DNA of 64,000 nucleotides from Arthrobacter sp. B6. Lineage in GTDB: Bacteria; Actinomycetota; Actinomycetes; Actinomycetales; Micrococcaceae. Below, one piece after another: positions 31,120 through 51,718 of this stretch. The position numbers and the translations under genes were made by a program. Every line of letters begins with the position of its first letter. Position 1 is the stretch's first letter. The stretch covers positions 224,420 to 288,419 of the forward strand of contig NZ_KV467168.1 in the NCBI RefSeq assembly GCF_001663775.1, written 5' to 3'. The notes beneath the pieces were generated by a model. The model was given only the letters and a program-made list of their open reading frames with translations. It was not told where the DNA came from and searched no databases.

Positions 31120-31644
31120 GTACACCCAACCTGACGTTAGTTACGCCTATTAGGAGTGTGACCTTCGGCGATAAATGGCGGTCTTTTTCGGCGCTATTTA
31201 TCGCCTGGGCGGCGTTAACCTTGCTCTTTGAATGGCGCGGTAGACGGTAGCCACTGCCATTCCTTCCCGCGTCCTGGCACGGATTCGGCTTCGAACTCGG
31301 CAACCATGCCCAGGACGTTGCATAGCAGCTTCCCCACCGGATCGTGAGGGTCGTAGACGCTGCCGCCAAGGATGAGGGCAACCCCTTTGCGGGTGAGTTC
31401 GTCCGCGATGTCCCTGGCGTCGGGCAACGATCGAGCGAGGCGATCAAGCTTGGTTACCACGAGGGTGTCTCCGTTGCGGCATGCGGCCAGGGCTTGCCAA
31501 CGCCGGGTCGTTCGCGTTGGGTGCCGGTGAATCCGTGATCGACGTAGATAGCGTCGGGATCCACGCCGGGGCGGCCGCGAGAGCGTCGCACTGGGCGGTT
31601 AGGTCTTGAGTGTTGGTGGAGACACGGGCGTAGCCGATAAGCAT
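31120..31644 (-). pseudogene. Serine recombinase (resolvase/invertase), frameshifted
   Basis: The reverse strand starts MLIGYARVSTNTQDLTAQ with the catalytic Ser (YARVST). The frame then shifts: GVDPDAIYVDHGFTGTQRER is in a second frame, VVTKLDRLARSLPDARDIAD and SVYDPHDPVGKLLCNVLGMV in a third, and ARTREGMAVA with a short DNA-binding tail (VYRAIQRARLTPPRR) in yet another. At least three shifts kill the gene, although each part is well conserved. Resolvases of this type come from Tn3-like transposons, plasmids or integrated elements. It is the only mobile-element gene seen and marks the left border of a debris zone. Confidence 0.8.
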
Positions 31645-31736
31645 GACGCCGAGTGCACCGTTTAGGGCCCCCTGATTCTGTGTCGAAGCAACGCCTGTGA
31701 AGGAACGAGCTTTGCGCCGCTAGGCGCGATCGAGCC

Positions 31737-32126
31737 TTGAACCTTCTGGCGCTGACCTCCCGCAACTGGGAACAGATCCGCTCAGCCGGCAGCAGGCTGG
31801 ACGTCTGGGACCGGCTCGTGGAACGCGCCGGCCGCAAGGCAGTGGTGGTGTACTCCTGGCAGGTGCCGCCTTCATGGGACGCCGAACACCACCTGCAGAT
31901 CTCCGTGGCAGCACTCCAGGACGGTGACCAGTTGCAGATGACGACCGAACTGCTGCCGATCTGGCCCGTCCACCACGCGGAACTCCTAGCCGATGTCGCG
32001 GCCGCAGGTCTAAGCCTCGCAGGGTCCACGTACGACGCGACCCAACCGAATTATCTCGTCACCGCTCAGCGCGACGCGCAGGGTTACCGACCTGACCCAC
32101 ATTCTCCTCATCTCGGCGTCGCATGA
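31737..32126 (+). pseudogene. Methyltransferase-like C-terminal remnant
   Basis: An open frame of 129 residues without a proper start (TTG, no ribosome site). The sequence looks like the C-terminal third of a class I SAM-dependent methyltransferase: LLALTSRNWEQIR, AVVVYSWQVPPSWDAEHHLQ, LLADVAAAGLSL and YLVTAQRDAQ. The cofactor-binding motif that should lie upstream is absent, and the sequence before 31730 belongs to the recombinase border. I take it as a 5'-deleted gene. Family assignment is moderate. Confidence 0.5.
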
Positions 32127-32694: not shown

Positions 32695-33270
32695 TCAGCG
32701 CTTCGTCTCGTACCTGGTCACGACCACGCCGCCGGGAAACGTCCGCGTCTCCACCAGGTTCAGGTTCACCCAGCTGTCCAGCGAGGTGAAGAACGGGGTG
32801 CCGCCGCCCACCAGGACCGGATAGGTGGCCAGCGCGTACTCGTCGATCAGCCCGGCCCGTATGGCCGCCCCGGCGAGCATTGCTCCGCCGACGCTCATCG
32901 GGCCGCCATCCCCGGCCTTGAGCCGGGTGATCTCGGCGATCGCGTCGCCGGTGACCAGGCGGGTGTTCCAGTCGACCTTGTCGATCGTCGAGGAGAACAC
33001 CACCTTCGGGGTGTCCCGCCAGTTCCGCGCGAACTCGATCTCCGCTGGGGTGGCGTTGGGCTGCTGGTCGCCGGTCGGCCAGTAGGAGCTCATGGTCGCC
33101 CAGAGCTTGCGGCCGTACAGCGACAGGCTGCTAGCCCGCTCCTGGTCGAGCCACCACTGGAACAGTTCGTCGCTCGGCCCGCTCCAGCCGATGTCGTCGC
33201 CGGCCGCGGCGATGTAGCCGTCCAGGGTCAGATTCATGCCGTAGATCAGTTTCCGCACGGCGCCAGCCAT
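32695..33270 (-). CDS. Dihydrofolate-reductase-fold (RibD C-terminal) family protein
   Basis: About 191 residues from ATG 33270 (GTG 33258 also possible). It opens RKLIYGMNLTLDGYIAAAGD, then YGRKLWATMSSYWPTG, KVVFSSTIDKVDWNTRL, GGPMSVGGAMLAGAAIRAGL and DEYALATYPVLVGGGTPFF. This is the stand-alone RibD C-terminal domain or YyaP/YwjB group, NADPH-dependent reductases of unknown substrate common in actinobacteria. Length is normal and the frame intact. It lies alone between truncated genes and has no operon partner. Confidence 0.82.
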   Translation of the reverse strand: MAGAVRKLIYGMNLTLDGYIAAAGDDIGWSGPSDELFQWWLDQERASSLSLYGRKLWATMSSYWPTGDQQPNATPAEIEFARNWRDTPKVVFSSTIDKVDWNTRLVTGDAIAEITRLKAGDGGPMSVGGAMLAGAAIRAGLIDEYALATYPVLVGGGTPFFTSLDSWVNLNLVETRTFPGGVVVTRYETKR

Positions 33271-33395
33271 CCGTCTCGTAGTGGTCGAGGGGCGTCGTTG
33301 AACTCTGTCGTCCCGCAAACGATTAGCTGCTTCCTGTCCCTCATAGAGCCACCGTAACTGCCCATGATCTCGATGCCATAGCTTCGGTCCGCGTT

Positions 33396-33906
33396 TCAAC
33401 TGAGCTTCCCGGTGAGGGATCCGCGTAGGGGGCGGACTGGGACTCCCGCCGAACTGGTGCTTTGCGTTGGCAACCCTGCGACGACGCCCGGGTTCGCCCG
33501 GCCTCGCGTTCCGGGTGAGGCCTGTCCAAAGCCGATGCTGTGCGCGTCATAGGGCGCGAGGGATTCCATGAGCGTAATCCCGCTGGTTGATGCGAGTTCT
33601 ACCAACCCCTCTACCATTTGGCTCGCCCGGAGTGGGCTGCAGGTATAGCCATACTGCATCTACAGGGCGTCCGTCGGGGCCGGATATTCGGACTGCCCGT
33701 TGTTCCGCAGCGGGGAACAACGTCTTCAAGGCATCGATGGCTCCTTCCCCTCCGTCCGCCATTGGTAGGAGTCGGACGTCGTCGTTAGGGCGGACAGTCA
33801 ACCAACCCTCGGCGATGTTGCGGGCCGCGGCATCCGCGGTTGCTGTGCCCCTTAAGGAGTCGGGGGCGAAGACGATGCGGGCCGCGTCTTTACTGGTGCG
33901 GCTCAC
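33396..33906 (-). pseudogene. Glycerate kinase, 5' part only, frameshifted
   Basis: The reverse strand starts with GTG 33906, inside the last codons of ribokinase (ATGTGA overlap). It reads MSRTSKDAARIVFAPDSLRG with NIAEGWLTVRPNDDV and LLPMADGGEGAIDALK, the N-terminus of a GlxK-type glycerate kinase. One extra base near 33610 shifts the frame; LVELASTSGITLMESLAPYD and IGFGQA continue in the next frame. Homology then stops at about 33530; the remaining 240 or so residues are missing. Glycerate kinase is the last step from glyoxylate in purine ring breakdown, so the operon once may have carried that function. Confidence 0.8.
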
Positions 33907-34841
33907 ATTCGGGCCGCAACCGTTGAGGCAAGTGAGTCGAGGTCCGTCCTTCTGCCGTATGACGGTTGTGCGCCGTGGCCTTGGGCAGCCCAGGCACCGG
34001 CCAGGGCCCCTGTTTGGGCTGCTTCGGTCAGCGTCCGCCCAGCCGCCAGTTCGGCTGCAAGACCACCCATGAACGCGTCCCCGCTTCCGGTTGTGTCTAC
34101 AGCGGTGACCGAGGCAGGATCGACCGCTGTGATGGTCAGGTGGCCGTCGCTGTGCTCGATGACAACGGCACCCTGCTTTCCCAAAGTGACAACCGTGCGC
34201 TCGATGCCGTCTTCGTGCAGTCTCCGGGCGTAGTCTTCCCACTGGCCTGACGGAATCTGATCCCCCAATAGTTCCAGCAGTTCGCCCTCGTTTACGACGA
34301 GCACGTCCACATTCGCAAGCAGGCGTCGCGGCAACGGCTGGGCCGGAGAAGCGTTAAGGAGGACCTGGGCACCCGCTGCCGCCGCCCGCTCGGCAACTGC
34401 AACAACGGTTTCCAGGGGAATTTCGAGTGCCATTAGGACAAGCGGGTTGCCGTGGAGATCAGCGTCGCTCACATCCTCGGGCCTGAGTGTGGCATTCGCG
34501 CCAGGTGAGACGATAATGGTGTTTTCGCCTTCTCGGTTGACGGATATCAGAGCGCAGCCTGTACTGGTGTCTGGGTTCCGCCGGACCCTGGAAGTGTCGA
34601 CTCCCCGGGCACTCGCTTCTATGATGAGCCGGTCACCGATGGCATCGGTGCCGACCACTCCGATGAGAGTTACGTCTGCTTCCAGCAGGGCTGCGGCTGC
34701 TGCCTGGTTTGATGACTTGCCGCCCGGCTCGGTGACGAGGTCGGTGCCGATCACGGTTTGGCCAGGTTCGGGAAGCTCTTTGACAGTGGTCATGAAATCA
34801 GCGTTCATGGAACCTACGACGAGGATTTTTGCGGTTGGCAT
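33903..34841 (-). CDS. rbsK: Ribokinase
   Basis: 312 residues of the PfkB family: ILVVGSMNADFMTTVKELPE, the substrate loop TEPGGKSSNQAAAAALL, ALISVNREGENTIIV, and the ATP/catalytic motif VDTTGSGDAFMGGLAAEL. The SMNxD and GGKxxNQA motifs are those of ribokinase. It makes ribose 5-phosphate from ribose, most likely that released by the two nucleoside hydrolases in this operon. It follows an SDR gene by 88 bases on the same strand and overlaps the broken glycerate kinase. Confidence 0.9.
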   Translation of the reverse strand: MPTAKILVVGSMNADFMTTVKELPEPGQTVIGTDLVTEPGGKSSNQAAAAALLEADVTLIGVVGTDAIGDRLIIEASARGVDTSRVRRNPDTSTGCALISVNREGENTIIVSPGANATLRPEDVSDADLHGNPLVLMALEIPLETVVAVAERAAAAGAQVLLNASPAQPLPRRLLANVDVLVVNEGELLELLGDQIPSGQWEDYARRLHEDGIERTVVTLGKQGAVVIEHSDGHLTITAVDPASVTAVDTTGSGDAFMGGLAAELAAGRTLTEAAQTGALAGAWAAQGHGAQPSYGRRTDLDSLASTVAARM

Positions 34842-34929
34842 GGCAATCGGTCCTTTCTGGCTGTGGTGCTGGATGCGCGTTGCTGCTGCTCGTGCATTTG
34901 GGCAACCGACGGGCTCGCGGCTGCGGGGA

Positions 34930-35697
34930 TTAGGAGATTGGCATGAATACTGTCAGCCCGCCGTCCACGACGAGGTGCTGGCCGGTGACGTAGCTCGCGT
35001 CATCGCTGCTGAGAAATCTCACAACGTTGGCAATCTCTTCCGGGCGTCCCACCCGTCCTGCCGGGATCTTCGTTCCGGCAAGGTCTAGGCCTTCGCGTCC
35101 GAACGAGTTCTCCCCGTCCTGTGTTTGAGCTGTGTCGATGACGCCTGGGATGACTGAATTTACACGGATCCCGCGGGGAGCGAGCTCTACAGCCAGTGCC
35201 TTGCAGAGCCCGAGTACGCCTGCTTTGGCGGCTGTGTAGTGGGCGTGTTGCGGCCAGCCGTAGACGCCCCCGGAAATCGATGACACTCCTACCAGAGCTC
35301 CGCCGTCGACCATGAGAGCGGCGGCGCTGCGGAAAAGGCGCATGACGCCGGTCAGGTCCACGGATATCAGGTCGTTCCACGCTTCGTCGGTCAAGCTTCC
35401 CAACGGGTGAAGCCGGACGATGCCGGCGTTGGCGACGGCGATGTCCAGGCGGCCCCATTCGGTGACCGCTCGACGTGCGAATTCGTCCACCTCGTCCGGG
35501 TCCCGGACGTCGAGTTCGTGGACGACGGCTGTCCCGCCTGCTTCTTCTACAAGTTTCATTGTTTCGTACGGATCGTGAGGATCCCCGGGGTATGCGCCGA
35601 TGACCGATTTGATGCCGGCTTTGGCGAATGCCACCGCGGTTTCGCGGCCTATGCCACTCGCTGCTCCGGTGATGATGGCAGTTCTCGTTCTTGTCAT
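34930..35697 (-). CDS. Short-chain dehydrogenase/reductase
   Basis: 255 residues, classical SDR: cofactor motif [19 protein letters not shown], catalytic Ser (VSSISGG), YTAAKAG (Tyr and Lys), and the end [19 protein letters not shown]. Residues after the second strand ([13 protein letters not shown]) lack the basic pair that favours NADP, so NAD use is likely. The family oxidises hydroxyl groups of many small molecules. It sits between the M24 protein gene and ribokinase; the substrate may be a hydroxylated product of the operon's pathway, but nothing in the sequence settles it. Confidence 0.87.
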
Positions 35698-35711
35698 TGT
35701 TCCTTCTGGTT

Positions 35712-36839
35712 CTAGAATGCCCGGACCCGGGGGATTTGATGCAAGGTGGAAGGGTAGGTGGAAAGGGCGGTTCCTCCCTGGGGGGTGATGAGGAACGTGT
35801 TGGCCACGCCTGCCGCGTCTCCGCTGGCGGGGTCAATCAGGCTGGGGTGCAGTGCCACGGCTTCGCCCTCCAGCATTTTGGTTTGTATTCCGGGGGCCAC
35901 CGCTACGGGTATTTCATCGATGCCGGTACTGTGCCCGAAACCGATGGTGGACTGCCCCGCTAAGGCCATATGTTCAGCGACTGCCGCGAACGGCTGTTCC
36001 GGGTGGAGGTGAGTGGCAGCACGGGCCAGCGCATCAATGGTCCTGTGCCCGAGGCGAAGCCGTTGGTCAGAAACGTGGCCGATGGCGAAGGCGGCGCCAA
36101 GCTCCACCCAGTGTCCATCTGCCCCGGCGGTTTCCACGAAGACTGTGACTATGTCCCCCTCGAGGATCTTCCGTTCCCGGGGCGCCTGGCCACTGAAGTC
36201 ATTGCATGAGACGTGGACGATCTCGAAAAGACTGCCTCTTGCCCGCAGCTGCTGTGCTATGGCTCCGGCGACTTCCCTCTCTGTAAGTTCCGTATGCAGA
36301 GCCTCTTCGCCGGCGCCGATGGCGCGTTCGGCAACTTGCATTGCCTGCCGCAGCTGCATTGCCTTGACCTGGTCGCTGCTCCTGCGCAGCTGCTCCATGG
36401 TTCCGCTCCCGTCCACAACACGGGTGTGTTGCCCGAGGGCTTGACGGATACCGTGATCGTCCCCTGTGGAAAGCCCATTGCTGCCCGGACCTGCCAAACC
36501 AATTGGCCCCTCGCCGACGGCACACGCTATTTCCGTCCACAGTCCTGCCCGTGTCGGGACGCTGGCGGTCCGTATCTGTATTCCCGCAGCCAGGAAACCG
36601 CTTTGCCTTACGGCTTGTGCCTCCAGTGCCGTCGCGGCGATCAGCTCGGGTGCTTTGCCTCGCCGTATGACCGCAAAAACTCCCTTATTGCTGGGCACGT
36701 GTCCGGTCAGGTAGACGATGTTCCCGAACTGGGAAACAGCTCCTGCACCATGGAGCACCAGGGAGTCGATGCCCTGCTTCTCTTGGGCGTCCCACACTTC
36801 CTCCCAACGTCGCAGGTAGTCGGGGCGGGATTCATTCAC
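35712..36839 (-). CDS. M24 (creatinase/aminopeptidase P fold) hydrolase with altered metal site
   Basis: About 375 residues from GTG 36839, which overlaps the previous stop (GTGAATGA); an extension to 36863 lacks homology. A creatinase-type N-terminal domain ([20 protein letters not shown]) is followed by the pita-bread fold ([32 protein letters not shown]). Metal positions are unusual: where aminopeptidases have the first Asp pair the protein reads [15 protein letters not shown], and where a Glu is expected it reads VALHPSLI. Creatinase itself works without metal, so a C-N hydrolase acting on a ureido or guanidino compound fits better than a peptidase. Neighbours (hydantoinase, allantoinase-like) support this. 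Confidence 0.75.
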
Positions 36840-37767
36840 CGGACTGCCGCATGGAGTCCACAATGGGGAAGTTGTGATGGTTCTCGAGCCACCACTCGGC
36901 GATGTCCGTCCGGCGTGCGAACCAGACGCCGCCCCGTTTCTGGGCGTAGGTAATGAAGTCGCGCAGGGCGGATGTGCGCGCAGCCTGCCCGGCCAGCCTC
37001 GGATGCAGGCCGACTGACATCATTTTCGGCAGCCCCTTCTCCCCTTCCAGCCACAGTTCGTCAAAGGCCCGCCGGAGGTAATCGAAGAACTCAGCAGGGT
37101 TCTTTGACCCCTGCGAGTCGTTGTAGGTCTGCGAGTACGGAACAACGAGGTGCCTTTGTCCTTTGACTTCTGTGAAGTAGGGCAGGTCGTCGTTGTAGGC
37201 GTCGCAGTCGAAGGAAAACCCGCCTTCTTCAACAACGAGGTCCCGGGTATTTACCGAGGGACCATAACGGCAGTACCAGCCGGTGGGACGACTGCCCCAG
37301 GTACGTTCGAAGGATTCCACTGCCTTGCGGATGTGTTCACGTTCTTCGTCACGTGTAAGTCTCCAGTGTTCTTCCCACCGCCAGCCGTGCGAGACAAGGT
37401 CATGGCCTGCGGTGCTGGCATACGATGCTACGGCCGGGTTCTTTTCAAAAGCCACGGCGCACCCGAAAAAGGTTGTCCGGACCTGTAACTCGTCGAACAG
37501 TCGCAGGAGCCGCCAGACCCCTGCCCTGCTCCCGTACTCATACATGGACTCTTGGGCGAGATCCCGGACATGGGCTGGAAACCGGTAACCCGAGTCGCCC
37601 AGGACATCGTTCTCGCCGTCGCCGGCGGCATAGGAGTACTCGGAACCTTCCTCATAATTTACGACAATGTTGACCGCGATGTTCGCGTTATCGGGCCAGG
37701 TTACCTTCGGCAGTTGTGGCCCGTAGCCGACAAGGTCCCGGAAGGGCCCGGTGAGTGTCGTCGTCAT
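36832..37767 (-). CDS. Polysaccharide-deacetylase-family hydrolase, PuuE (allantoinase) type
   Basis: About 311 residues from ATG 37767, which shares one base with the SDR stop (TGATG). It carries the features of the PuuE branch: VNIVVNYEEGSEYS, DLVSHGWRWEEHWRLT, RPTGWYCRYGPSVNTRDLVV and FDCDAYNDDLPYF. PuuE proteins open the hydantoin ring of allantoin without the usual amidohydrolase fold. Here it stands beside a classical hydantoinase, so two unrelated ring-opening enzymes share one operon. The true substrate may be a related cyclic ureide rather than allantoin. Confidence 0.85.
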   Translation of the reverse strand: MTTTLTGPFRDLVGYGPQLPKVTWPDNANIAVNIVVNYEEGSEYSYAAGDGENDVLGDSGYRFPAHVRDLAQESMYEYGSRAGVWRLLRLFDELQVRTTFFGCAVAFEKNPAVASYASTAGHDLVSHGWRWEEHWRLTRDEEREHIRKAVESFERTWGSRPTGWYCRYGPSVNTRDLVVEEGGFSFDCDAYNDDLPYFTEVKGQRHLVVPYSQTYNDSQGSKNPAEFFDYLRRAFDELWLEGEKGLPKMMSVGLHPRLAGQAARTSALRDFITYAQKRGGVWFARRTDIAEWWLENHHNFPIVDSMRQSGE

Positions 37768-38552
37768 CAGTAGGCCATCCATCCGCCGTCGACAAGGAGG
37801 TTGTGGCCCGAGATGTAGCTGCAGTCATCCGATGCGAGGAACAAAGCGGCGCCGGCCACGTCTTCGGCCCTTCCGAGGCGAGGGAACGGCGTGCGGGATC
37901 GCGAGTATTCGAGTACGGGGTCGGTCATGTCGACTTCCCCGGGGTGGGTTCCGGTGATGATTCGTCCGGGGGCGATGCCGTTGACGATAATTCCGTGCTG
38001 GGCGTAGTCAACGGCGAGCTGCCGTGTCATCTGGATCATTCCGCCTTTGCTGACGGAGTAGGCGAAAAAGTCTGGGGCTCCGACGAGGCCGTGTTGCGAG
38101 GCGACGTTGATTACGCGGCCGCGGACTTCCCCGATGGGGTCCTGTGCAATCATCTGCCTGATGCCGCGTTTGCAGCTGAGAAACTGTCCCCGGAGGTTCA
38201 CGTCCATGAGCCGGTCCCAGTCTTCCTCGCTGGTGTCGAGCACCGAGGAGGAGAACACGAGCCCTGCGTTGTTGACCAGGATGTCCACGCGTCCGAAGTC
38301 TTCAACGGCGCGGGTCACCAGCCGGTCGATGTCGTCGGCCTTTGAAACGTCGGTCTGCTGGAATACCGCCGTCCCGTTTTCGGCCATGATCAGGTCGGCT
38401 GTGGGCAGCTCGTCGGTGCCGTTCCAAACGGGTTCTTCGCGTATGTCGCTGACTACTACCTTCGCCCCTTCACGGGCAAAGCGGAGCGCTATGGCCCGGC
38501 CGATACCGGATGAAGCTCCGGTGACGATTGCTGTGCGACCTGCAAGGCGCAT
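37767..38552 (-). CDS. Short-chain dehydrogenase/reductase
   Basis: 261 residues: TGASSGIGRAIALRFAREG, LVNNAGLVFSS, NVASQHGLVG (Ser), YSVSKGG (Tyr and Lys) and DDCSYISGHNLLVDGGWMAY. The Asp after the second strand (VVVSDIREE) points to NAD. It has an unusual insertion after that strand (WNGTDELPTADLI). It is upstream of the PuuE-like gene, overlapping by one base, and 79 bases after the nucleoside hydrolase. It shares little with the SDR at 34930-35697 beyond the fold, so two separate oxidations are likely. Confidence 0.87.
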   Translation of the reverse strand: MRLAGRTAIVTGASSGIGRAIALRFAREGAKVVVSDIREEPVWNGTDELPTADLIMAENGTAVFQQTDVSKADDIDRLVTRAVEDFGRVDILVNNAGLVFSSSVLDTSEEDWDRLMDVNLRGQFLSCKRGIRQMIAQDPIGEVRGRVINVASQHGLVGAPDFFAYSVSKGGMIQMTRQLAVDYAQHGIIVNGIAPGRIITGTHPGEVDMTDPVLEYSRSRTPFPRLGRAEDVAGAALFLASDDCSYISGHNLLVDGGWMAY

Positions 38553-38585
38553 GTTTCATGCCTTTCTCTGAGGAGCAAGATAGTG

Positions 38586-38619
38586 CCGTCCCGGCGTGCA
38601 GAGGCGCAGGCCGGGACGG
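38586..38619 (-). terminator. Intra-operon hairpin after the second nucleoside hydrolase gene
   Basis: CCGTCCCGGC and GCCGGGACGG form a perfect 10-bp stem with a 14-base loop and no T-run, between the nucleoside hydrolase stop and the SDR start. Likely tunes the ratio of transport and hydrolase genes to later enzymes. Confidence 0.55.
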
Positions 38620-38630
38620 ACAGCGGAGGA

Positions 38631-39587
38631 TCAGCTAGCGCTGACTTGTTTGATGGCATCGATGATGAGGTCCCAGAAAGCGTCGAAGTCCAAAGTGGTG
38701 GCCGCGAGGTTGTTGAAGGGCAGGCCGTAGGCGCCGAGGAAGTCGGTGACGGTTTCGCCGTAGGTCCATTTACCCTGGGTTTCGACGGCGATGAACGCCT
38801 CCATCGCCTGCACGACGGATGGGTTGATCACTCGCGCCACGGCGCAGGCGTCGTGGATCGGCGGGTAGGGCATCTTCCACACGGAATCGTAGTTCGCGCC
38901 GAAGAAATCGAGCCATTCGACGACTACCTGTGAAATGGGTGTTCCGATCGCCCGGATCCGTTCCTTCACCTCGGGGGTGGCAACTGCCTGGTGGGTGAGG
39001 TCCAGTCCCACCATCGTTACCTGCCACTGTGCGGCGAAAACCGCCGCTGCGGCTTCCGGATCGGCGAGGATGTTGAACTCGGCCGCGGGCGTGGCGTTCC
39101 CCTGGGTGTAGGCCCCGCCCATCAGGACGACTTCCTTTACGCGGTCCACTATTTTCGGCTCCAGCCGCATGGCCAGGGCGATGTTGGTGAGCGGTCCGGT
39201 GGGGACCAGTGTGTACTCGTCCTGCTCCCCTGCCATAACGAGGTCCACGATGAGCTGTGCGGCATGGCGGGGGTCGAGCTCCATCACGGGTTCCGGCAGC
39301 GCCGGACCGTCCAGCCCAGAGACACCGTGGACCGATCCGGCGATCACTTCGCCGTCGGTGATCTGTTCACGCACCAGGGGGAATTCCGCGCCGGCGGCGA
39401 TCGGGATGTTGATCGCTCCGACGAGCGTGGCAACACGCTGTGCGTTGTAGGTTGTCTTTGCCAGGACCTGGTTGCCGGCGACAGAAGTGATGGCGGCCAG
39501 TTCAATATCAGGATTTCCCTGCGCGAGCAGGATGGCTATCGCGTCATCGTGTCCGGGGTCAACGTCGAGAATGATCTTCTTAGGCAC
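38631..39587 (-). CDS. Nucleoside hydrolase (IunH family)
   Basis: 318 residues with the calcium-binding motif DVDPGHDDAIAILLA, the substrate region LVPTGPLTNIALAM, MGGAYTQGNATPAAEFNILADPEAA and IHDACAVARVINPS. All Asp ligands (first motif and HDA) are present. It splits the N-glycosidic bond of nucleosides to ribose and base. GTG start with GGAG upstream. It directly follows the ABC permease genes. It differs from the second hydrolase at 42911-43867 (DVDTGTDDA), so the operon has two, perhaps for different bases. Confidence 0.92.
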   Translation of the reverse strand: MPKKIILDVDPGHDDAIAILLAQGNPDIELAAITSVAGNQVLAKTTYNAQRVATLVGAINIPIAAGAEFPLVREQITDGEVIAGSVHGVSGLDGPALPEPVMELDPRHAAQLIVDLVMAGEQDEYTLVPTGPLTNIALAMRLEPKIVDRVKEVVLMGGAYTQGNATPAAEFNILADPEAAAAVFAAQWQVTMVGLDLTHQAVATPEVKERIRAIGTPISQVVVEWLDFFGANYDSVWKMPYPPIHDACAVARVINPSVVQAMEAFIAVETQGKWTYGETVTDFLGAYGLPFNNLAATTLDFDAFWDLIIDAIKQVSAS

Positions 39588-39622
39588 TTAATTACTCTCC
39601 TTAGGAGTTTGTTGGATCGGCT

Positions 39623-40552
39623 TTACTTCAGTCCGGATCGGGCGAGCCCGGGGATGAAGAGCCGTTGAAGGAAGATGAACAGAATTAGCAGGGGGATGGT
39701 GGCCACGGAGGCGCCCGCGAATGTCAGGCCCCAGTTTGGCAGCGCCCCGGGGGATACTGACTGCGCGACGGCGACCTGCACAAGTGTGTTTTCCGTGCTC
39801 TGGATGGCCACGAGGGGCCAGAGGAATGCGTTCCACGAGAACAGGAAAATCATCAGTACAAACGTCACGAGGTCGACCCGGACCACGGGGAGAATGACTG
39901 ACCAGAAAATCCGGAAGTGGCCCGCGCCGTCGAGTTTGGCAGCTTCGTCCAGTTCCAGAGGAACCGCTTCGAATGACTGACGGAGCAGGAACAACCCGAA
40001 CGCGCTTGCGATCCAGGGAACACCCACGGCAATGAGGGTGTCCTGCAGGCTCATTGCGGAAATCAGCTGATACAGCGGAACGACGAGCGCTTCAGCGGGA
40101 AGCATGAACGTGGCAAGTATGACGGCGAACACTGCGTTGCGGCCCTTGAAGGCGATTCTGGTCAGCGCATAGGCTGCCAGCGTGCACAGGATGAGTGAGG
40201 CCACCACTTGGAATGCCGCGACCAGGAACGAGTTCAGCAGGGCGCGTCCGACGCCCCGGTCAACGAACAGCTCTTCGAGGTTTTCGAAGGTCACAGCAAG
40301 TGGAACGAACGTCTTCCAACTGAGCGGGCTAATGTCCGCGAAGATGCTCGATTGGCTCTTCAGGCCTGAAACGAACATCCATTCGTACGGCAGGACGAAG
40401 GCCATCAGAATTGCAATGACGACGACCGTTGTCCAGATCCGCTGCCATAGCCGGGTGGGCACGCGGCTCCGGCCGGTCTTGTCGCCGTTTCCGCCGGCAC
40501 CGCCCCCGGCTCCGGCGTCGTCCGACACGCGTTGCGATGTCAGCTGTGTCAT
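39623..40552 (-). CDS. ABC transporter permease (MalG/CUT1 type)
   Basis: 309 residues. A polar N-terminal tail (about 30 residues) precedes six membrane segments in the MalG arrangement. The EAA loop that docks to the ATPase is LDEAAKLDGAGHFRIFWSVI. It pairs with the permease at 40554-41474 and the lipoprotein at 41486-42835. As usual for CUT1 importers no ATPase gene is in the cluster; a shared MsiK/UgpC-type ATPase elsewhere is expected. ATG lies one base after the upstream stop. Confidence 0.92.
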   Translation of the reverse strand: MTQLTSQRVSDDAGAGGGAGGNGDKTGRSRVPTRLWQRIWTTVVVIAILMAFVLPYEWMFVSGLKSQSSIFADISPLSWKTFVPLAVTFENLEELFVDRGVGRALLNSFLVAAFQVVASLILCTLAAYALTRIAFKGRNAVFAVILATFMLPAEALVVPLYQLISAMSLQDTLIAVGVPWIASAFGLFLLRQSFEAVPLELDEAAKLDGAGHFRIFWSVILPVVRVDLVTFVLMIFLFSWNAFLWPLVAIQSTENTLVQVAVAQSVSPGALPNWGLTFAGASVATIPLLILFIFLQRLFIPGLARSGLK

Positions 40553-40553
40553 C

Positions 40554-41474
40554 TCAGTAGTCCCATCGGGTTCGGAGAAGTCTCATTTGAACGAGGCTGA
40601 TAGTGATGGCTCCGACCAACAGCAGAACCGACAGTGCAGAAGCGAAGCCCGGGTCCTGCAGGGTGAAAGCCTGTTTGTAGATCTCGTAAACGAGCAGGTT
40701 GGTGGTGCCCCCCGGGGCGCCTTTGGTCATGACGTAGGCCGGAGTGAATGACTGAAGCGCAAAGACCGTCATGATGACCACGACCATGACGGTCGTCCTG
40801 GACAGGAGCGGGATCACGATCAGAAATGTCCGCTTCAGCCCCCCTGCACCGTCGAGGACCGATGCCTCCATTACGTCACCGGGAATGGACTGAAGTCCGC
40901 CGAGGTAGAGGATGGCGGCCATGCCAACTTGCTGCCAGACACTCATGATGATGATCGACGGCAAAGCCAAAGCCTGGTCGGTTAGGAACGAGGCGGTACC
41001 AAACCCCAGAGAATTCAGGACGGCGTTGACGAGTCCTTCGTTGGCCAGCAGGAAATTCCACAGGGTTGCGACCACAACCGATGATGTGATGACCGGGAGG
41101 AACACTGCTGTCCGAAGGATTCCCCTGCCTGGAAGGGGTTGATTAAGATACGTGGCCAGGAGGAAGCCCAGCGGGATGATCAGGACGACCATTCCTACCG
41201 CGAAGATCAGCGTGACCCCTATGGTTTGAAGAGCCCCTGGATCGCTGAAGATCCGGGCGAAGTTCTCCAACCCCACGAACGTCTGCAGGTCGGGGTTGAT
41301 AAGCGTGTAACTGAGAAGGCTGTTCTTGATAAGGAGTACAACCGGGACGTATTGGAATACTGCGAGGATGATGAGGAACGGGGCCAGGAAGCCGGCCGCG
41401 ACGAGTAATTCTCGCCGCGACCGCTTCCTTCCAGTTCCACGGACGAGCCTCGTCCTCGTCGTCGTGGATGACAT
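40554..41474 (-). CDS. ABC transporter permease (MalF/CUT1 type)
   Basis: About 306 residues from ATG 41474, preceded by AAGGAG; a frame reaching 41633 runs into the binding-protein gene and is rejected. Six membrane segments follow a basic tail (TRLVRGTGRKRSRRELL), with the docking loop VMEASVLDGAGGLKRTFLIV. It forms the heterodimeric channel with the permease just downstream. Substrate by context is a nucleoside-like molecule. Confidence 0.92.
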   Translation of the reverse strand: MSSTTTRTRLVRGTGRKRSRRELLVAAGFLAPFLIILAVFQYVPVVLLIKNSLLSYTLINPDLQTFVGLENFARIFSDPGALQTIGVTLIFAVGMVVLIIPLGFLLATYLNQPLPGRGILRTAVFLPVITSSVVVATLWNFLLANEGLVNAVLNSLGFGTASFLTDQALALPSIIIMSVWQQVGMAAILYLGGLQSIPGDVMEASVLDGAGGLKRTFLIVIPLLSRTTVMVVVIMTVFALQSFTPAYVMTKGAPGGTTNLLVYEIYKQAFTLQDPGFASALSVLLLVGAITISLVQMRLLRTRWDY

Positions 41475-41485
41475 GGACGGTCTCC

Positions 41486-42835
41486 TTACCGGGACATCAG
41501 CGGCGACAGCTTGGTCACTGCCTGGTCGAGTTCGTCCTTGGGGTCGCCACCGTAGGCGATGTTCTTCAGCGCGTTCTCCACGATCTGGCTGTACTGGGAG
41601 AAGTGCGTAGTGGGCGGCCGCGGCTGGCCCCACTTCTCCAGCTCACTGTAGAACAGACTCAGCGGGGGCTCTTGGAATTCCGGCAGTTCCTTGTAAACGC
41701 TGTTCAGCGTGGGAAGGCGGCCGTTCTTCTGGTTATATTCCTTGGCTGCGGCACCCGTGCTCACGGCAACCACGAACTCCGCCGCCGCGTCTGCCTGCTT
41801 CGATTTCGCCGACGCCGCAACAGTGATCGCACCCGTATGAACAATGGGGGTCTTGATGTAGGGCATCGGTGCCACACCCCAGTCGAAGGACACCTGGGCG
41901 TCCTTCAAAGGCTGGACCTGCCCCGCGTGGAACATGTCAAAACACGCCTTGCCGTCCAAAAATGCATTCGGCCGCCCCGTCTTCGAAGTGACTGCTTTAT
42001 CGCCGTTATACAGTGACTGATAGAAGCCCGCCGCTTCAACCGCTTCGGGCGTGTTCAACCAGCCGTCAACCTCTTTACCATCAGGAGAGATCGCGTAGAA
42101 GGTCTTGTACGCTGACGAATCACTTGGCGCCTTAGGGTCGCCGGCACTGCGAAGATACAACAGGTCGCTATAAACCGGCCCCGGAGTCCCCGAACCCAGC
42201 TGCGTCGGCGCGAGCCCGTAAATTGTTGGGTTGCCAGGGGTCCCCTGTTGGCACTTCAGCATGGCATCGCGGGCCTGCTCCCACGTCCAGGCCGTATCCA
42301 GGGTCGTGGGGACCGTGATGCCGGCCTGGTCAGTCAGGGTCTTGTTGTAGTACAGGCCCAAGGCGTCCTGCTGAACGCCCATGGTGTAAACCTTGCCCTC
42401 GTAGCTGCCCTCTGTGAGCGTGGCTGGAAGGACGTCGTCCTTCCACCCCTCAGGCAGGTAGTCATCGAGGGGAAGCAGTACGCCTTTGGAAGCGTAGTTC
42501 GCGGTCTCCGGCAGGTCATATCCGTAGATGTCCGGTGCGTTAGCCGAGGAGCTGAGAACACTGACCTTGTCGGCGTACTGGCCGAAAGGCACATCGGTGA
42601 CGTCGAAGGTGACGCACCCGTTGGTCTTGGTCGTGTAGTCGGCCATCTGGGCGTCCGTTGGCACGTTGGTCGTGGACCGCAGAACCTTAAGCTTGGCTGA
42701 CCCGTCAGGGCAGTTGGCGCTGGTCTCCGGGGCACTCGGTGAACACGCAACTACGGATGAGGCCAGAGCGCCAATCGCAAGTGTTGTAAGGATCAGACGG
42801 CTTCTCCGCCGTCGTGATGTAAAGTTGTTGTACAT
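41486..42835 (-). CDS. ABC transporter substrate-binding lipoprotein (CUT1, type II fold)
   Basis: About 449 residues from ATG 42835, which has AGGAG seven bases upstream; the ATG at 42850 is less well placed. Lipoprotein signal with four Arg residues, a hydrophobic core and VVAC (Cys31). The mature part is the MalE-like extracellular solute-binding fold 1: QDALGLYYNKTLTDQAGI, WTWEQARDAMLKC, FLDGKACFDMFHAGQ, VSFDWGVAPMPY. It captures substrate outside the membrane. A hairpin at 42861-42893 precedes it. Fold 1 proteins usually bind sugars, so a ribosylated compound is reasonable; this is inference. Confidence 0.92.
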   Translation of the reverse strand: MYNNFTSRRRRSRLILTTLAIGALASSVVACSPSAPETSANCPDGSAKLKVLRSTTNVPTDAQMADYTTKTNGCVTFDVTDVPFGQYADKVSVLSSSANAPDIYGYDLPETANYASKGVLLPLDDYLPEGWKDDVLPATLTEGSYEGKVYTMGVQQDALGLYYNKTLTDQAGITVPTTLDTAWTWEQARDAMLKCQQGTPGNPTIYGLAPTQLGSGTPGPVYSDLLYLRSAGDPKAPSDSSAYKTFYAISPDGKEVDGWLNTPEAVEAAGFYQSLYNGDKAVTSKTGRPNAFLDGKACFDMFHAGQVQPLKDAQVSFDWGVAPMPYIKTPIVHTGAITVAASAKSKQADAAAEFVVAVSTGAAAKEYNQKNGRLPTLNSVYKELPEFQEPPLSLFYSELEKWGQPRPPTTHFSQYSQIVENALKNIAYGGDPKDELDQAVTKLSPLMSR

Positions 42836-42860
42836 AAGTGACTCCTTCATTACTGGCGTG

Positions 42861-42893
42861 GGAGGGTGTTCGTTTCCTAGGCATTCACCCTCC
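42861..42893 (-). terminator. Hairpin between nucleoside hydrolase and binding-protein genes
   Basis: GGAGGGTG and CACCCTCC form an 8-bp stem with a 17-base loop in the 75-base leader of the binding-protein gene. No T-run; probably a processing or tuning signal. Confidence 0.4.
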
Positions 42894-42910
42894 GCGTTAG
42901 GACTAGCTGC

Positions 42911-43867
42911 CTATCTCCCTTCGCTCATGGCCTCGAAAAGAAGCTTGTTGAACAGGTCCGCGCCCGCGCCCAATGCCACAAATGCATTGGGCTTTTTGCG
43001 GGAGCGTGAGGCGACATCGACAAATGTTTTGCCGAAAGCCAGCGGGCTGACCGTGTCGACGGCGACGTGGTAGGCCGCCAGGTCGACCACGGCCGGGTCT
43101 AAGAGGTACGCGATGCAGAGAGCATCATGCACGGGAGCCGAATCCGGTTCATTCTGAGGCTGGGTTTCGTTATAGCCATGGATTCGCTGCTCGACGATGT
43201 CTGCAGCCACACGAGCGGCCGGAGTGCCAATGGCACGCAGGGCGGCGGTGTGACGCAAGGACATGTTGGCTTTATGGGTCGCATCGAGGGGCACCAGCAC
43301 GAGACGTTCGAAGCCTGCCTGCAGGACGACGTCTGCTGCGACCGGGTCATGCCAGATGTTTGCTTCGGCTGAAACCGTGACGTTACCCAACGCGTGCCCA
43401 CCGCCCATGATGACGACCTCGTCGATCGCCTGAACGATCCGGGGGTCCAGAGTGATGGCTGCTGCGATGTTCGTCAATGGTGCTACTGGCACCAAGGTGA
43501 TCTGCTCCGTGGTTGCCCGCAGAGTTTCCACCAGCCATTCCACTGCCGGCTGCTGAGATGCCAGTCGGAGGGTGGCCGGCGCTGGGAAGTCACGAGGATG
43601 AATAACTTCCCGCTCGCTGTCAACGTGATCCTCGAAGAGGAACGGGATGGGTGCGTAGGGCTTACCGAGTCCCCGGTACACCGGAATGTCCTGACGACCG
43701 ATCAGGTCGAGAGTCCGCAGTGTGTTCTCTGTCGTGGTGTCAACGTCGTGGTTACCCCACACGGTGGTGCAGGCGATCAAATCCAGTGGCCGGGACTGGG
43801 CCGCCAACATGATCGCGATTGCGTCGTCGGTTCCCGTGTCGACGTCGAGAATCACTTTTCGGGTCAT
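42911..43867 (-). CDS. Nucleoside hydrolase (IunH family)
   Basis: 318 residues: metal motif DVDTGTDDAIAIMLAA, CTTVWGNHDVDTTTENT, VPVAPLTNIAAAI, MGGGHALGNVTVSAEANIWHDPVAA and VHDALCIAYLLDP. It is the second hydrolase of the operon and is about as distant from the first as typical family members with different base preference. ATGA overlap with the hydantoinase stop means the two are co-translated, linking release of a base to opening of its ring. Ribose released would go to ribokinase at 33903-34841. Confidence 0.92.
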   Translation of the reverse strand: MTRKVILDVDTGTDDAIAIMLAAQSRPLDLIACTTVWGNHDVDTTTENTLRTLDLIGRQDIPVYRGLGKPYAPIPFLFEDHVDSEREVIHPRDFPAPATLRLASQQPAVEWLVETLRATTEQITLVPVAPLTNIAAAITLDPRIVQAIDEVVIMGGGHALGNVTVSAEANIWHDPVAADVVLQAGFERLVLVPLDATHKANMSLRHTAALRAIGTPAARVAADIVEQRIHGYNETQPQNEPDSAPVHDALCIAYLLDPAVVDLAAYHVAVDTVSPLAFGKTFVDVASRSRKKPNAFVALGAGADLFNKLLFEAMSEGR

Positions 43868-45342
43868 GCCAGGAGCTCCTCTTTGTTGGATCCGGTGATC
43901 ATGGTTTGTGTTCCGCCGATCGCGGGTGCCGCCAGGAGCGGGACGGCGTCGAGCTGGGCTTTTGAGAAGATGTGCCGTCCAACGGGTCCCGGATCGTGGA
44001 ACCCGTCGTCGTCAATAACGACGCGTCCTGCGCTGATCACCGCAGTGGGCCAGCCGGTGAACTCCGTGCCCTCGTACGGCGAATAGTCAGAGTTCATATG
44101 GTGCGTCTTTGCGCTGATTACCTTCGTTATCGTGGGGTCGAAAATGACCACGTCGGCATCCGCGCCAGGGCCTATCCAGCCCTTGGACCTGAGGCCATTG
44201 AGGACTGCGGGATTTGTTGAAGACATCGCCACGAAGTGTTCAACACTCATTCCACCGCGGATGACGAGCGTGTCAAAGGACACCGTCATTCGGTGTTCGA
44301 CACCCGGGAGACCGTTGGGCATGGAGGTCACGTCGTGGGAGTATTTTTCTTTCTGTGCGCTGGAGTAGCAGCAGTGATCGGATCCAAGGGTGTGGACCAT
44401 GCCCCTGATCGTCCGGTCCCTCAGTCCATTCATGGCGGCAGCGGAGCGGATTGGCGGGCAGCAAACGAAAAGTTCGGGTCGCCCGCTTTCATAGACGCTG
44501 TCGTCCAAAGTGATGTAGTGCGGGCAGGTTTCTGAGTAGGCGCGGATGCCCTTGGACCTGGCATCTGCAACCAAATCCACAACATCGGGCGTCGTCTGGT
44601 GTACGAAGTAGACAGCCGCTCCAGTGTTTGCCGCGATCCCCAGGGCGCGGGAGACAGCAGCTGCTTCAGCTGCTTCGGGCCGCGTCAGCCCGTGGTGCCG
44701 GGAGTCGCCCCGCCCATGCTCGCGCTCGTAGTTTTGCGCCTGCTCGACCAGGTGATTCTCCTCGGCGTGAATAATTGCTACGCCACCGAGACCGGCAAGG
44801 ACTTCCATGACTTTTTCGATGGTGTCGAATCCGGCCATCACCCCGTCACGATATGTTGTGAACATCTTGACCGTGAGGACTCCGAGTTCAGCTAAGGACA
44901 GGAGTTGATCGCGTGTGGTGTTGTCCCAGGCGACAACACCACCGTGCAGGGCCAGGTCTGTGCGCGTATCCTGCGCAGCCTTGCGCTTCTCGTACACAGC
45001 CTGCAGCGGGCTTTGGCCGGGTTCCGGAATGGCGAAATCAATGATGGTGGTGGTACCGCCCCACAGAGCTGCAATGCTTGCCTGACCGTGGCTGTCCAGC
45101 ATGGAGAATTCACCGAGCACCTGCCCGACGTGGCAGTGCGGATCGACCCCGCCGGGCAGAACCAGCTGGCCTGTCGCGTCGATTTGTCGCTTATGAGGGG
45201 GCAACGGCGCGTCCACGTCGAGGATCCCTGCGATGCGCCCGTCTTGGATCAAGACGGTGCCCTCAGAGGATCCGGTGGCGTTGACGACAAGGCCGCCGGT
45301 AACAACAAGGTCATAGGGCGTAGGGATTGTTTGGTCAGGCAC
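43864..45342 (-). CDS. Dihydropyrimidinase/hydantoinase
   Basis: 492 residues, cyclic amidohydrolase family. Zinc motif PGGVDPHCHV, the carbamylated-Lys strand TVKMFTTYRDGV, IIHAEEN, YFVHQTT, the ETCPHYITLDDSVY stretch and GSDHCCYSSAQK with the catalytic Asp. MPNGLPGVEHRM is close to dihydropyrimidinase rather than to allantoinase. It opens dihydropyrimidines or hydantoins to N-carbamoyl amino acids. The GTG start lies eight bases inside the GntR gene end. The partner carbamoylase usually found next to such genes is absent; the M24 protein may take that place. Confidence 0.92.
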   Translation of the reverse strand: MPDQTIPTPYDLVVTGGLVVNATGSSEGTVLIQDGRIAGILDVDAPLPPHKRQIDATGQLVLPGGVDPHCHVGQVLGEFSMLDSHGQASIAALWGGTTTIIDFAIPEPGQSPLQAVYEKRKAAQDTRTDLALHGGVVAWDNTTRDQLLSLAELGVLTVKMFTTYRDGVMAGFDTIEKVMEVLAGLGGVAIIHAEENHLVEQAQNYEREHGRGDSRHHGLTRPEAAEAAAVSRALGIAANTGAAVYFVHQTTPDVVDLVADARSKGIRAYSETCPHYITLDDSVYESGRPELFVCCPPIRSAAAMNGLRDRTIRGMVHTLGSDHCCYSSAQKEKYSHDVTSMPNGLPGVEHRMTVSFDTLVIRGGMSVEHFVAMSSTNPAVLNGLRSKGWIGPGADADVVIFDPTITKVISAKTHHMNSDYSPYEGTEFTGWPTAVISAGRVVIDDDGFHDPGPVGRHIFSKAQLDAVPLLAAPAIGGTQTMITGSNKEELLA

Positions 45343-46060
45343 GAGTGCCGCCTCCGTTCATGAAAATGGCACGGTCCAGATGCCCAAGATGGTTTCGCAT
45401 CGCTTCGGCCGCGGATAGTGGATCGCCGCCGCGGACTGCCTTGAGGACGGCACGGTGCTCGTCGACTTGCACCTGCCGAGACGCCGGGTCCGGCAATCCT
45501 TGTTGATTGACGAGGACCCACAGTGGATGCGATTCGATGTTCACCAGCTGCTCGATAATCCCCGACAGGATTGAGTTGCCGCACCCAGGTGCCAGATCCG
45601 AGTGGAACTGAAGCCCCAAGGCGACAAATTCGGCAACCCCTGTGGAGTCCTCCACAAGTTCGGCCTGGCGATCCAGATACCGCTCCAACTTGGAAATCCG
45701 CTCAGACGTAATCCTGGTGGCCGCCAAGCTGGCTGCTACAGGCTCAATCGACAGGCGGGTCTCAATCAACTCCCGCGGAGGGACGTCAAGGGGGGAACCT
45801 TCGGTCCCGCCGACCTTCGCAGCGCGCCGTACGAAAGTCCCGTCACCATGGCGAACCTCAATTGCCCCCACAAGCTCCAAGGCCAGGAACGCTTCCCGCG
45901 CGGTAGGCCGGGAAACCTGATACTTAGCGGCGATATCGGTATGGGCGGGTAGCCGCTCTCCTGCTGCGAACTCGCCATTGGTAATGGCCATCAACAGGTC
46001 CTGGGCGACATTCAAATAGCGGCGCTGCCGACCTGACTCATCTGATGTGTGCATAGTCAC
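45335..46060 (-). CDS. GntR/FadR-family repressor
   Basis: 241 residues. Winged helix (LLMAITNGEFAAGERLPAHT, YQVSRPTAREAFLALELVGA, RHGDGTFV) then an all-helical FCD ligand domain (RLSIEPVAASLAATRI, FHSDLAPGCGNSILSGII, DEHRAVLKAVRGGD). FCD regulators sense small acids. The GTG start at 46060 has no good ribosome site and ATG 46054 is possible. It heads the operon with the hydantoinase, so it would repress itself and all genes down to ribokinase. A palindrome of its expected type lies just upstream. Confidence 0.9.
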   Translation of the reverse strand: MTMHTSDESGRQRRYLNVAQDLLMAITNGEFAAGERLPAHTDIAAKYQVSRPTAREAFLALELVGAIEVRHGDGTFVRRAAKVGGTEGSPLDVPPRELIETRLSIEPVAASLAATRITSERISKLERYLDRQAELVEDSTGVAEFVALGLQFHSDLAPGCGNSILSGIIEQLVNIESHPLWVLVNQQGLPDPASRQVQVDEHRAVLKAVRGGDPLSAAEAMRNHLGHLDRAIFMNGGGTRA

Positions 46061-46070
46061 AAGATATACG

Positions 46071-46099
46071 TCTTACGAGTAAGATGCAAGAGGTAAGAC
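46071..46099. promoter_or_regulatory. GntR-type operator
   Basis: TCTTAC-GA-GTAAGA (46071-46084) is a perfect palindrome, followed at 46093-46099 by a further half-site GTAAGAC. It lies 11 bases from the GntR start and 59 bases before the divergent dehydrogenase gene, so one protein could control both. Confidence 0.7.
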
Positions 46100-46142: not shown

Positions 46143-47096
46143 ATGAAGGTTCTGATTCCGTCAACGGTCAGTTCAGAGTCGTTTACAGGTGAAAGGGTGG
46201 ACGACTTCATCGTCTATGACGTACACGCCCCAATACCGGAAGAGCATAGGGATGCCGAGGTTCTGGTGGCGTGGCAGAACCCTCCGGCACAACTGGCAGC
46301 CGCGGCAAAACACCTCACGCGCCTGCGCCTGGTGCAAGCCCTGGCCTCGGGGACGGACGCTGTCACCGCAGCCGGCTTTCCTGAGCCGGTACAGGTATGT
46401 TCGGGCCGTTCCCTTCATGATGGGCCGGTAGCCGAGCACACCCTTACGCTCGTGCTCGCCTGTATCCGGAGGCTCGACCGGCTCCACCTGGCTCAGCAAT
46501 CCAGTACGTGGGACAACGAGTACGTTCATGAGCAGGCAAGTCCGAGTACTGCCCGCGACTACACACTCGCTGGCGCAGGTGTCCTCATCTGGGGATTTGG
46601 TTCCATCGCCGCGAAGCTAGCTCCCCTTCTCACATCTCTGGGCGCAAAGGTCACGGGTGTGGCAAGCACCGCGGGTAACCGCTCAGGCTATCCCGTCGTG
46701 ACAGAAGATACTGCCCGGGAAATGCTGGCAAGTACAAACGTGCTCATTTCCCTTGTGCCCGCTACCGCGCGAACCGACAAGCTGTTCAACAACAGTGTGT
46801 TCGCCACCATGCCGCGAGGCTCCGTTTTCATCAACGCAGGACGTGGTTCAACGGTCGACGAAGCAGATCTTAGATCCGCCCTCGAAAAGAAACAGCTAAG
46901 GGTTGCGGCCATCGACGTCGCGCAAAGCGAACCACTGCCCTCCACCTCACCACTATGGACAACAGAAAACCTCATCATCACACCGCACGTTGCCGGAAAC
47001 AGGCCACAAGGAGCGGCAGCGCTGATCAGTAGGAACCTAGAAGCACTTCACACCGGCAACATGCTGGAAAACCTCACCTCAAAAAGTGTCTCCTGA
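46143..47096 (+). CDS. D-isomer-specific 2-hydroxyacid dehydrogenase
   Basis: 317 residues. The NAD fold is LIWGFGSIAAKLAPLLTSLG; catalytic residues appear in NAGRGSTVDEADL (Arg), AIDVAQSEPLP (Glu) and IITPHVAGNRP (His). The N-terminal catalytic domain is short (about 100 residues) with SGTDAV in the substrate loop. The family reduces 2-keto acids or oxidises 2-hydroxy acids. It is transcribed away from the GntR gene and shares its operator region; it could process glyoxylate or tartronate semialdehyde from ureide breakdown. Start follows AGGTGGG. Confidence 0.87.
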   Translation: MKVLIPSTVSSESFTGERVDDFIVYDVHAPIPEEHRDAEVLVAWQNPPAQLAAAAKHLTRLRLVQALASGTDAVTAAGFPEPVQVCSGRSLHDGPVAEHTLTLVLACIRRLDRLHLAQQSSTWDNEYVHEQASPSTARDYTLAGAGVLIWGFGSIAAKLAPLLTSLGAKVTGVASTAGNRSGYPVVTEDTAREMLASTNVLISLVPATARTDKLFNNSVFATMPRGSVFINAGRGSTVDEADLRSALEKKQLRVAAIDVAQSEPLPSTSPLWTTENLIITPHVAGNRPQGAAALISRNLEALHTGNMLENLTSKSVS

Positions 47097-50074: not shown

Positions 50075-50108
50075 AACCAGCCCCATCCAAGCACTCCAAG
50101 GAAGAATC

Positions 50109-50432: not shown

Positions 50433-50435
50433 ACC

Positions 50436-51674: not shown

Positions 51675-51718
51675 CGCTCTGCCCCTAAACGCCGCCTTGA
51701 CCCAACGCAGGAGAAACC

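Follow-up and report, generated by a model that had tools for sequence, protein, structure and literature searches.

The window analysed here, a 64 000-nucleotide stretch of the Arthrobacter sp. B6 genome (contig NZ_KV467168.1, positions 224 420–288 419; window coordinates are used throughout), carries on its reverse strand an operon (33903–46060) in which nucleoside hydrolase and ribokinase-like genes stand together with genes for two putative ring-opening hydrolases. We tentatively propose that this operon, controlled by a GntR-type regulator, imports and degrades an N-ribosylated cyclic ureide or imide (a modified or oxidized pyrimidine-type nucleoside or a ribosyl-hydantoin) and not plain uridine; judged from the sequence, we hold this to be nearly an even proposition. 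The region contains 12 genes, all on the reverse strand, with neighbours that overlap or lie less than ∼90 bp apart, a layout as in one operon. The families assigned in a first-pass annotation of this DNA were all confirmed (PfkB, two short-chain dehydrogenases, M24, two IU_nuc_hydro, two BPD_transp_1, SBP_bac_1, PuuE-type, Amidohydro_1 and GntR with an FCD domain), and its assignment of these genes to one operon agrees with the tight spacing and with an identical gene order in three further genomes. Two features are added here: a divergent 2-hydroxyacid dehydrogenase gene (2HADH; 46143–47096, forward strand) and a frame-broken glycerate kinase gene (∼33517–33882, reverse strand). None of the families is new by itself; the unusual feature is the set of C–N enzymes combined in this putative nucleoside and cyclic-ureide catabolic operon. 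The earlier suggestion that this combination is an uncharacterized pathway fits our finding no description of it in the open-licence literature, where absence is weak evidence.

Conservation of the cluster

Genomes were sampled at one per species, and the genus set comprised 198 genomes, that of strain B6 included. Counts from the profile scan of genome contigs hold among the matches listed; in fetched loci, mechanical reading frames were matched to a small reference set, and undetected neighbours do not amount to proven absence. The cluster is present with the same gene order in four of the 198 genomes (strain B6, G536, G508 and G422), which argues that it is not a chance grouping. All 12 operon proteins and 2HADH occur in G536 and G508; in G422, tblastn detected no ribokinase, and the fetched stretch ends within 2HADH. 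Ten window proteins are 67–94% identical to their counterparts in the three other copies, with lower values for 2HADH (55–67%), the kinase (59–68% where found) and the M24 protein (37–50%). The PuuE-like protein has family matches (E 1e-30) in 23 of the 198 genomes, and identities of at least 81% occur solely in the four operon genomes, the next being 61%. Likewise, the hydantoinase-like protein matches in 112 of the 198 genomes (E 1e-110) and exceeds 52% identity only in these four (100, 79, 77 and 68%; next tier at most 52%).

Nucleoside hydrolases and kinase

Nucleoside hydrolases 1 and 2 (NH1, 42911–43867; NH2, 38631–39587) score 253 and 308 bits with PF01156 (cut-off 34.2), which places both in the IU nucleoside hydrolase superfamily. 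In NH1, a DVDTGTDD motif, which we take to be the aspartate-rich metal motif of these enzymes, is invariant in six of six aligned sequences together with N170, H247 and D248. NH2 is UriH-like and falls below the UriH cut-off (NF052221, 385 versus 450 bits). The ribokinase-like PfkB kinase (33903–34841; PF00294, 210 bits) is also below its curated threshold (TIGR02152, 264 versus 299.65 bits); this threshold seems strict for the kinase group, as the kinase of the uridine locus described below scores only 256.

A second NH2-type copy, 55% identical to NH2, lies elsewhere in the genome. Its locus combines a UriH match of 529 bits (cut-off 450), a UriT match of 715 bits (cut-off 600), both from NCBIfam models, and a ribokinase-like kinase, and by these matches it is a canonical uridine locus (uriH-uriT-ribokinase). 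Since this set is present elsewhere, plain uridine is an unlikely substrate of the window operon; plain uridine use was rejected as its main role and is probably not the reason for its existence. The earlier proposal of ribosylated-heterocycle catabolism is thereby narrowed: a ribosylated ring remains the simplest reading of the substrate, with plain uridine set aside. Corynebacterium-type uridine operons are arranged uriR-rbsK-uriT-uriH and share with the window a UriH-branch nucleoside hydrolase, a ribokinase-like kinase and a dedicated importer. The window operon differs in having an ABC importer instead of UriT and in adding a second nucleoside hydrolase, two ring openers, an M24 protein, two short-chain dehydrogenases and 2HADH. 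NH1 was also considered as a marker of the pathway and rejected. Its profile matches seven of 394 class genomes at 1e-85 (strain B6 included) and three of 395 family genomes at 1e-70, and the seven further loci examined (six from the class and one from the family) showed no PuuE, hydantoinase or M24 relatives.

The two putative ring openers

The D-hydantoinase/dihydropyrimidinase-like amidohydrolase (HYD; 43864–45342; PF01979) scores best, among the listed models, with TIGR02033 (372 bits, just under the cut-off of 393). Residues H69, H71, K159, H192, H248 and D322 are invariant in four of four orthologues and are presumably the ligands of a binuclear metal site. Such a site in amidohydrolases consists of four histidines, one aspartate and one carboxylatable lysine, according to a passage in PMC9863593. 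Hydantoinases ∼50% identical to HYD are widespread in the genus; the genome of strain B6 has no second HYD match at E 1e-110. At all three chromosomal loci inspected (L169, L170 and L171), these paralogues adjoin a hydantoin-racemase homologue and a GntR-type gene. Plasmid matches, of which those near 50% identity come from Arthrobacter and Paenarthrobacter, amount to 11 records; the racemase homologue stands beside one of the two plasmid loci examined. The hydantoin-racemase/hydantoinase sets of the genus hold the nearest relatives of HYD and a regulator of the same type; unlike the window operon, they include a homologue of the racemase and gave no match for nucleoside hydrolase.

The PuuE-like protein (36832–37782), a putative cyclic amide/imide hydrolase, has the polysaccharide-deacetylase fold (PF01522). 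Its best NCBIfam model is PuuE (TIGR03212), with 318 bits against a cut-off of 424.6; the best NCBIfam deacetylase model reaches 38. Neighbours were counted at 80 PuuE loci from named genomes (relatives detected at E 1e-15, some loci short). Among the 57 loci with a PuuE less than 50% identical to that of the window, 47 have a ureidoglycolate lyase and 41 a PuuD relative nearby, a context that is that of the urate pathway. The 23 loci at 50% identity or more include only three with ureidoglycolate lyase and none with PuuD; HYD, isochorismatase and CoA-transferase relatives occur in five loci each and methylaspartate ammonia-lyase in three. An identity of at least 50% was rejected as the definition of a clade, as the 36 rows concerned need ten changes on the tree. 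We used instead a 17-row set that contains the window protein in a 121-row tree (support 98/95) and excludes the urate-context Pseudomonas and Vibrio rows; the tree has long branches, that of L107_p0 above all, and the joining of L054 and L151 may be false.

PuuE, reportedly described by Ramazzina and colleagues in 2008, is the allantoinase of the urate pathway. It belongs to the same family as the window protein, most urate-context relatives being 45–47% identical to it with near-invariant residues in common; clade and gene neighbours differ. Ureidoglycolate lyase and PuuD are not among the operon genes, and PF04115 was not found in the genome. A true allantoinase was rejected on the sub-threshold score, the different clade and the different context.

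Thirteen rows of the 17-row set are not orthologous to the window gene. At five of them (L045, L060, L063, L068 and L037), a family III CoA-transferase accompanies an isochorismatase or an amidase; matching to the reference sets detected neither at the other eight. L060, L063 and L068 also have methylaspartate ammonia-lyase and short-chain dehydrogenase relatives, one of the latter being 47–52% identical to SDR2 of the window; unlike the window, they show no detectable nucleoside hydrolase or HYD relative. These clusters look like a separate cyclic-amide pathway that would end in a mesaconate-type CoA ester and not in glycerate. Their isochorismatase is biuret-hydrolase/RutB-like where scanned. 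At L037 (8511–14265, genome G469 of the same genus), a PuuE-like gene (60% identity) is accompanied by a MaoC/mesaconyl-CoA-hydratase-domain gene, which has relatives in L063 and L068, an AtzE-like amidase, a CoA-transferase and a ribose-type ABC importer. Two further loci of the genus (L043 in G484 and L044 in G557) hold, on opposite strands and separated by ∼3–4 kb, two PuuE-family genes; these stretches also include relatives of isochorismatase and amidase. Such pairing recurs in several other genus genomes.

The M24 protein and the missing C–N cleavage

The creatinase-like M24 (pita-bread fold) protein (35712–36839; PF00557) was assigned a GTG start at 36839, the longest open reading frame beginning at TTG 36863. 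Canonical M24 metallopeptidases bind metal through five residues (D, D, H, E and E). Aligned to canonical M24 chains, the window protein has F235, E247, H304, H332 and N348 at these positions, so that the ligands are mostly lost, which argues against peptidase chemistry. Creatinase, a urea-releasing amidinohydrolase that shares the fold, works without metal. The sequence similarity of the M24 protein to prolidases and creatinase is weak, with only 15–17% identity to creatinase and the ectoine hydrolase DoeA, and prolidases are equally close. An AlphaFold2 model built from five sequences has a mean pLDDT of 79.8 and is poor near residues 298–317. A fold search with this model gave creatinase (Z score of 31.6) and Xaa-Pro dipeptidase (31.4) in a tie, followed by DoeA (29.9), and Foldseek placed creatinase first with prolidases after it; as modelled, the fold alone does not choose between creatinase and prolidase. 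In six of six pairs of copies, differences are most frequent at third codon positions and least frequent at second positions, and no copy has internal stops, which indicates that the gene is under constraint although it evolves fast.

As the first-pass annotation had stated, the operon contains no carbamoylase, allantoate hydrolase or phosphorylase gene. The whole genome has no match to TIGR01879, the carbamoylase/allantoate-hydrolase family, or to PF04115 (ureidoglycolate lyase), which makes the M24 protein the best candidate in the operon for the missing C–N cleavage. As a marker of the pathway the M24 gene was rejected: only three of 396 phylum genomes match, strain B6 included, and no plasmid match was found. 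One relative (L041, 27–28% identity) has a GntR gene and a gene of the phosphotriesterase family nearby; for the other (L042), the only such neighbour is a distant relative of HYD (29%) ∼2.6 kb away.

Related clusters on plasmids

Plasmid searches returned 311 records for PuuE and two for NH1 (1e-60); eight PuuE and two NH1 loci were examined, with M. huakuii in both groups. M. huakuii pMHb carries within 8 kb an NH1-like gene (46%), a glycerate dehydrogenase, a ureidoglycolate lyase (PF04115), a PuuE-like gene (52%), an FCD regulator, an epimerase-type oxidoreductase, a short-chain dehydrogenase and HydA. The A. vitis plasmid cluster comprises a short-chain dehydrogenase, a GntR gene, an NH1-like gene (44%), a BMP-type importer, an epimerase-type oxidoreductase, an NH2-like gene (49%), a styrene-monooxygenase-like flavoprotein, a flavin reductase, HydA and ribokinase, with no PuuE in the stretch examined. 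HydA, an epimerase-type oxidoreductase and a short-chain dehydrogenase are thus near NH1 in both records. In A. vitis, the flavoprotein and its reductase are located between a nucleoside hydrolase and HydA with ribokinase (L126, 18823–23991), and this pair may be a sign that a pyrimidine ring is oxidized.

A ureidoglycolate lyase adjoins PuuE at six of the eight plasmid loci (L125, L128 and L130–L133) and not at L127 or L129. By analogy, the plasmid theme would be ring opening followed by another C–N cut. As only L127 belongs to the 17-row set of the window protein, these loci support the general theme and not orthology. Treating the M24 protein as a simple stand-in for ureidoglycolate lyase was accordingly not adopted beyond analogy, the lyase-linked PuuE genes lying outside the 17-row set.

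Importer, dehydrogenases and flanking regions

The importer consists of a CUT1-type solute-binding lipoprotein (41486–42850; PF01547, lipobox assigned by eye) and two PF00528 permeases, A (40554–41474; 73–91% identity to relatives) and B (39623–40552). Permease A was assigned an ATG start that fits its relatives, the longest reading frame starting at 41633. None of the operon genes was identified as encoding an ABC ATPase. The importer differs from the BMP type of nucleoside importer: the binding protein is of the SBP_bac_1 family and the BPD_transp_1 permeases are nearest to sugar importers. Two short-chain dehydrogenases (PF13561), SDR1 (37767–38552; 80–90% identity to relatives) and SDR2 (34930–35697; 78–82%), complete the operon together with the GntR-type regulator with an FCD domain (45335–46060; PF00392 and PF07729).

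The divergent 2HADH gene (PF02826, 145 bits) starts 82 bp from the operon and also adjoins it in G536, G508 and G422; NCBIfam D-2-hydroxyacid dehydrogenase and GhrA models all score below cut-off. The intergenic region contains a perfect 7-base inverted repeat (GTCTTAC-N16-GTAAGAC, 46070–46099), a candidate GntR operator, of which a similar but imperfect motif was recognized by eye, with no statistics, in the three relatives. At the other end, glycerate kinase (PF02595) is intact as the last gene of the operon in G536 and G508, and G422 has an MFS gene after SDR2 at that place. The window retains only the N-terminal part of the gene in two reading frames, as located by tblastn with the intact genes (L035 and L034). 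The B6 genome has two broken glycerate kinase matches at the 3′ end of the operon and two longer, distant ones elsewhere (40–41% identity). Together, 2HADH and glycerate kinase give a hint of the fate of the carbon.

The next gene downstream of the broken glycerate kinase encodes a RibD_C-domain protein (32695–33399, reverse strand), and the end of an open reading frame at 31454–32029 (reverse strand) resembles a serine recombinase by eye; this frame and the broken kinase may reflect a rearrangement at the 3′ flank. Near the operon and separate from it, a cytochrome P450, a ferredoxin-reductase-like protein and an MFS transporter are encoded in a row beside a LysR gene (48761–53101).

Proposed pathway and alternatives

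From the gene families and their contexts we infer the class of substrate, the sequence of the steps, every enzyme activity and glycerate as the end point. The ABC importer would take up the substrate, its ATPase presumably being the product of a gene elsewhere; this step is weakened by the binding protein, which is of a sugar-binding type. NH1 and NH2 would release ribose, which the kinase would then phosphorylate. HYD, as a metal-dependent enzyme, and the PuuE-like enzyme may each open a C–N bond of the ring. SDR1 and SDR2 may oxidize hydroxyls on the base or on opened intermediates derived from the ring; relatives of these dehydrogenases beside PuuE in clusters that lack ribose genes suggest that they act on the ring part. 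The apparently metal-free M24 protein would make a further C–N cut, perhaps with release of urea, a step that ureidoglycolate lyases, isochorismatases or amidases may carry out in related clusters; this role is suggested by its place after PuuE, its fold and the lack of any genome match to TIGR01879 or PF04115. Finally, 2HADH would reduce the remaining oxo acid, and in two relatives glycerate kinase would phosphorylate the glycerate.

Several observations weigh against this proposal. Relatives of the nucleoside hydrolases, the M24 protein, ribokinase and 2HADH are found at none of the 80 PuuE loci from named genomes (at E 1e-15, some loci being short), and a nucleoside hydrolase accompanies only one of the eight plasmid PuuE loci. 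The co-occurrence that the first-pass annotation had suggested as a check holds for the whole ordered set in the four genomes and fails for these 80 PuuE loci; the ring and ribose steps are thus separable, and a common substrate molecule for HYD and PuuE is not required. The closest solved chains to the lipoprotein are, by a weak match, maltose/oligosaccharide binders, and the importer of the A. vitis cluster is, unlike that of the window, of the BMP type. The M24 protein evolves much faster than its neighbours, its analogy with ureidoglycolate lyase crosses clades, and two isochorismatase-family genes (three matches) elsewhere in the genome, where other amidases were not searched for, could supply the C–N step instead. 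An intact glycerate kinase is missing from the window and was not found at that place in G422, and the plasmid HYD relative at L135 has no racemase. The PuuE loci without nucleoside hydrolases would suit a mixed scavenging operon, in which the nucleoside hydrolases and ribokinase serve ordinary nucleosides and HYD and PuuE serve free hydantoins or imides unrelated to these, with a regulator in common and no single pathway; the seven further NH1 loci lacking PuuE, HYD and M24 relatives point the same way. We consider it unlikely, as the whole set is present and in order in four genomes, the ribose and ring gene groups are interleaved, and NH1-, PuuE- and HydA-like genes lie within 8 kb in M. 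huakuii.

Somewhat more unlikely is a reductive-type pyrimidine route for dihydrouridine or a close analogue, with HYD as the dihydropyrimidinase, the M24 protein removing the carbamoyl group, the short-chain dehydrogenases and 2HADH processing the C3 acid and PuuE handling a side substrate. The best-scoring HYD model and the UriH-like NH2 agree with such a route; it leaves PuuE, conserved at 81–85%, without a job, the genome has no TIGR01879 match, and a glycerate kinase is not expected where β-alanine is the product. The nearest solved relatives of the binding protein and the deacetylase fold of PF01522 would also suit glycoside or sugar-amide catabolism, with a glycoside imported by the CUT1 system, PuuE as a deacetylase and the nucleoside hydrolase folds cleaving a non-nucleoside riboside. 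This is improbable given the wide margin between the PuuE and deacetylase model scores and the absence from the operon of any sugar-catabolic family except ribokinase. Most improbable of all is degradation of a purine nucleoside through a true allantoinase: the TIGR03212 family match that would favour it is below the curated cut-off, the protein stands outside the clade associated with ureidoglycolate lyase and PuuD, and neither PF04115 nor TIGR01879 has a match in the genome.

For the preferred reading, degradation of an N-ribosylated cyclic ureide or imide, the candidate chemistries weighed were uracil glycol, 5-hydroxyhydantoin, ribosyl-hydantoins and t6A-type nucleosides, which the sequence did not separate. 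A more specific version is speculative, and we rate it between the reductive and the glycoside routes. In it, the operon would be dedicated to the salvage and catabolism of nucleosides that are damaged or modified, for example ribosides of the 5-hydroxyuracil or 5-hydroxyhydantoin type; an enzyme with the creatinase fold and no metal would take over the urea-releasing step of ureidoglycolate lyase, and the oxidized ring carbon would become glycerate.

Implications

If the substrate is a modified or oxidized nucleoside, the operon would represent a way for bacteria to draw carbon and nitrogen from such compounds. It would also give an assignable function to a metal-free branch of the M24 family and to a PuuE branch annotated as allantoinase or polysaccharide deacetylase. 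To judge from the clusters that contain methylaspartate ammonia-lyase, ureidoglycolate lyase, isochorismatase or amidases, PuuE relatives may have roles in several pathways for cyclic amides, for which we found no description in the open-licence literature, and solving one of these PuuE-linked pathways would help to annotate the others.

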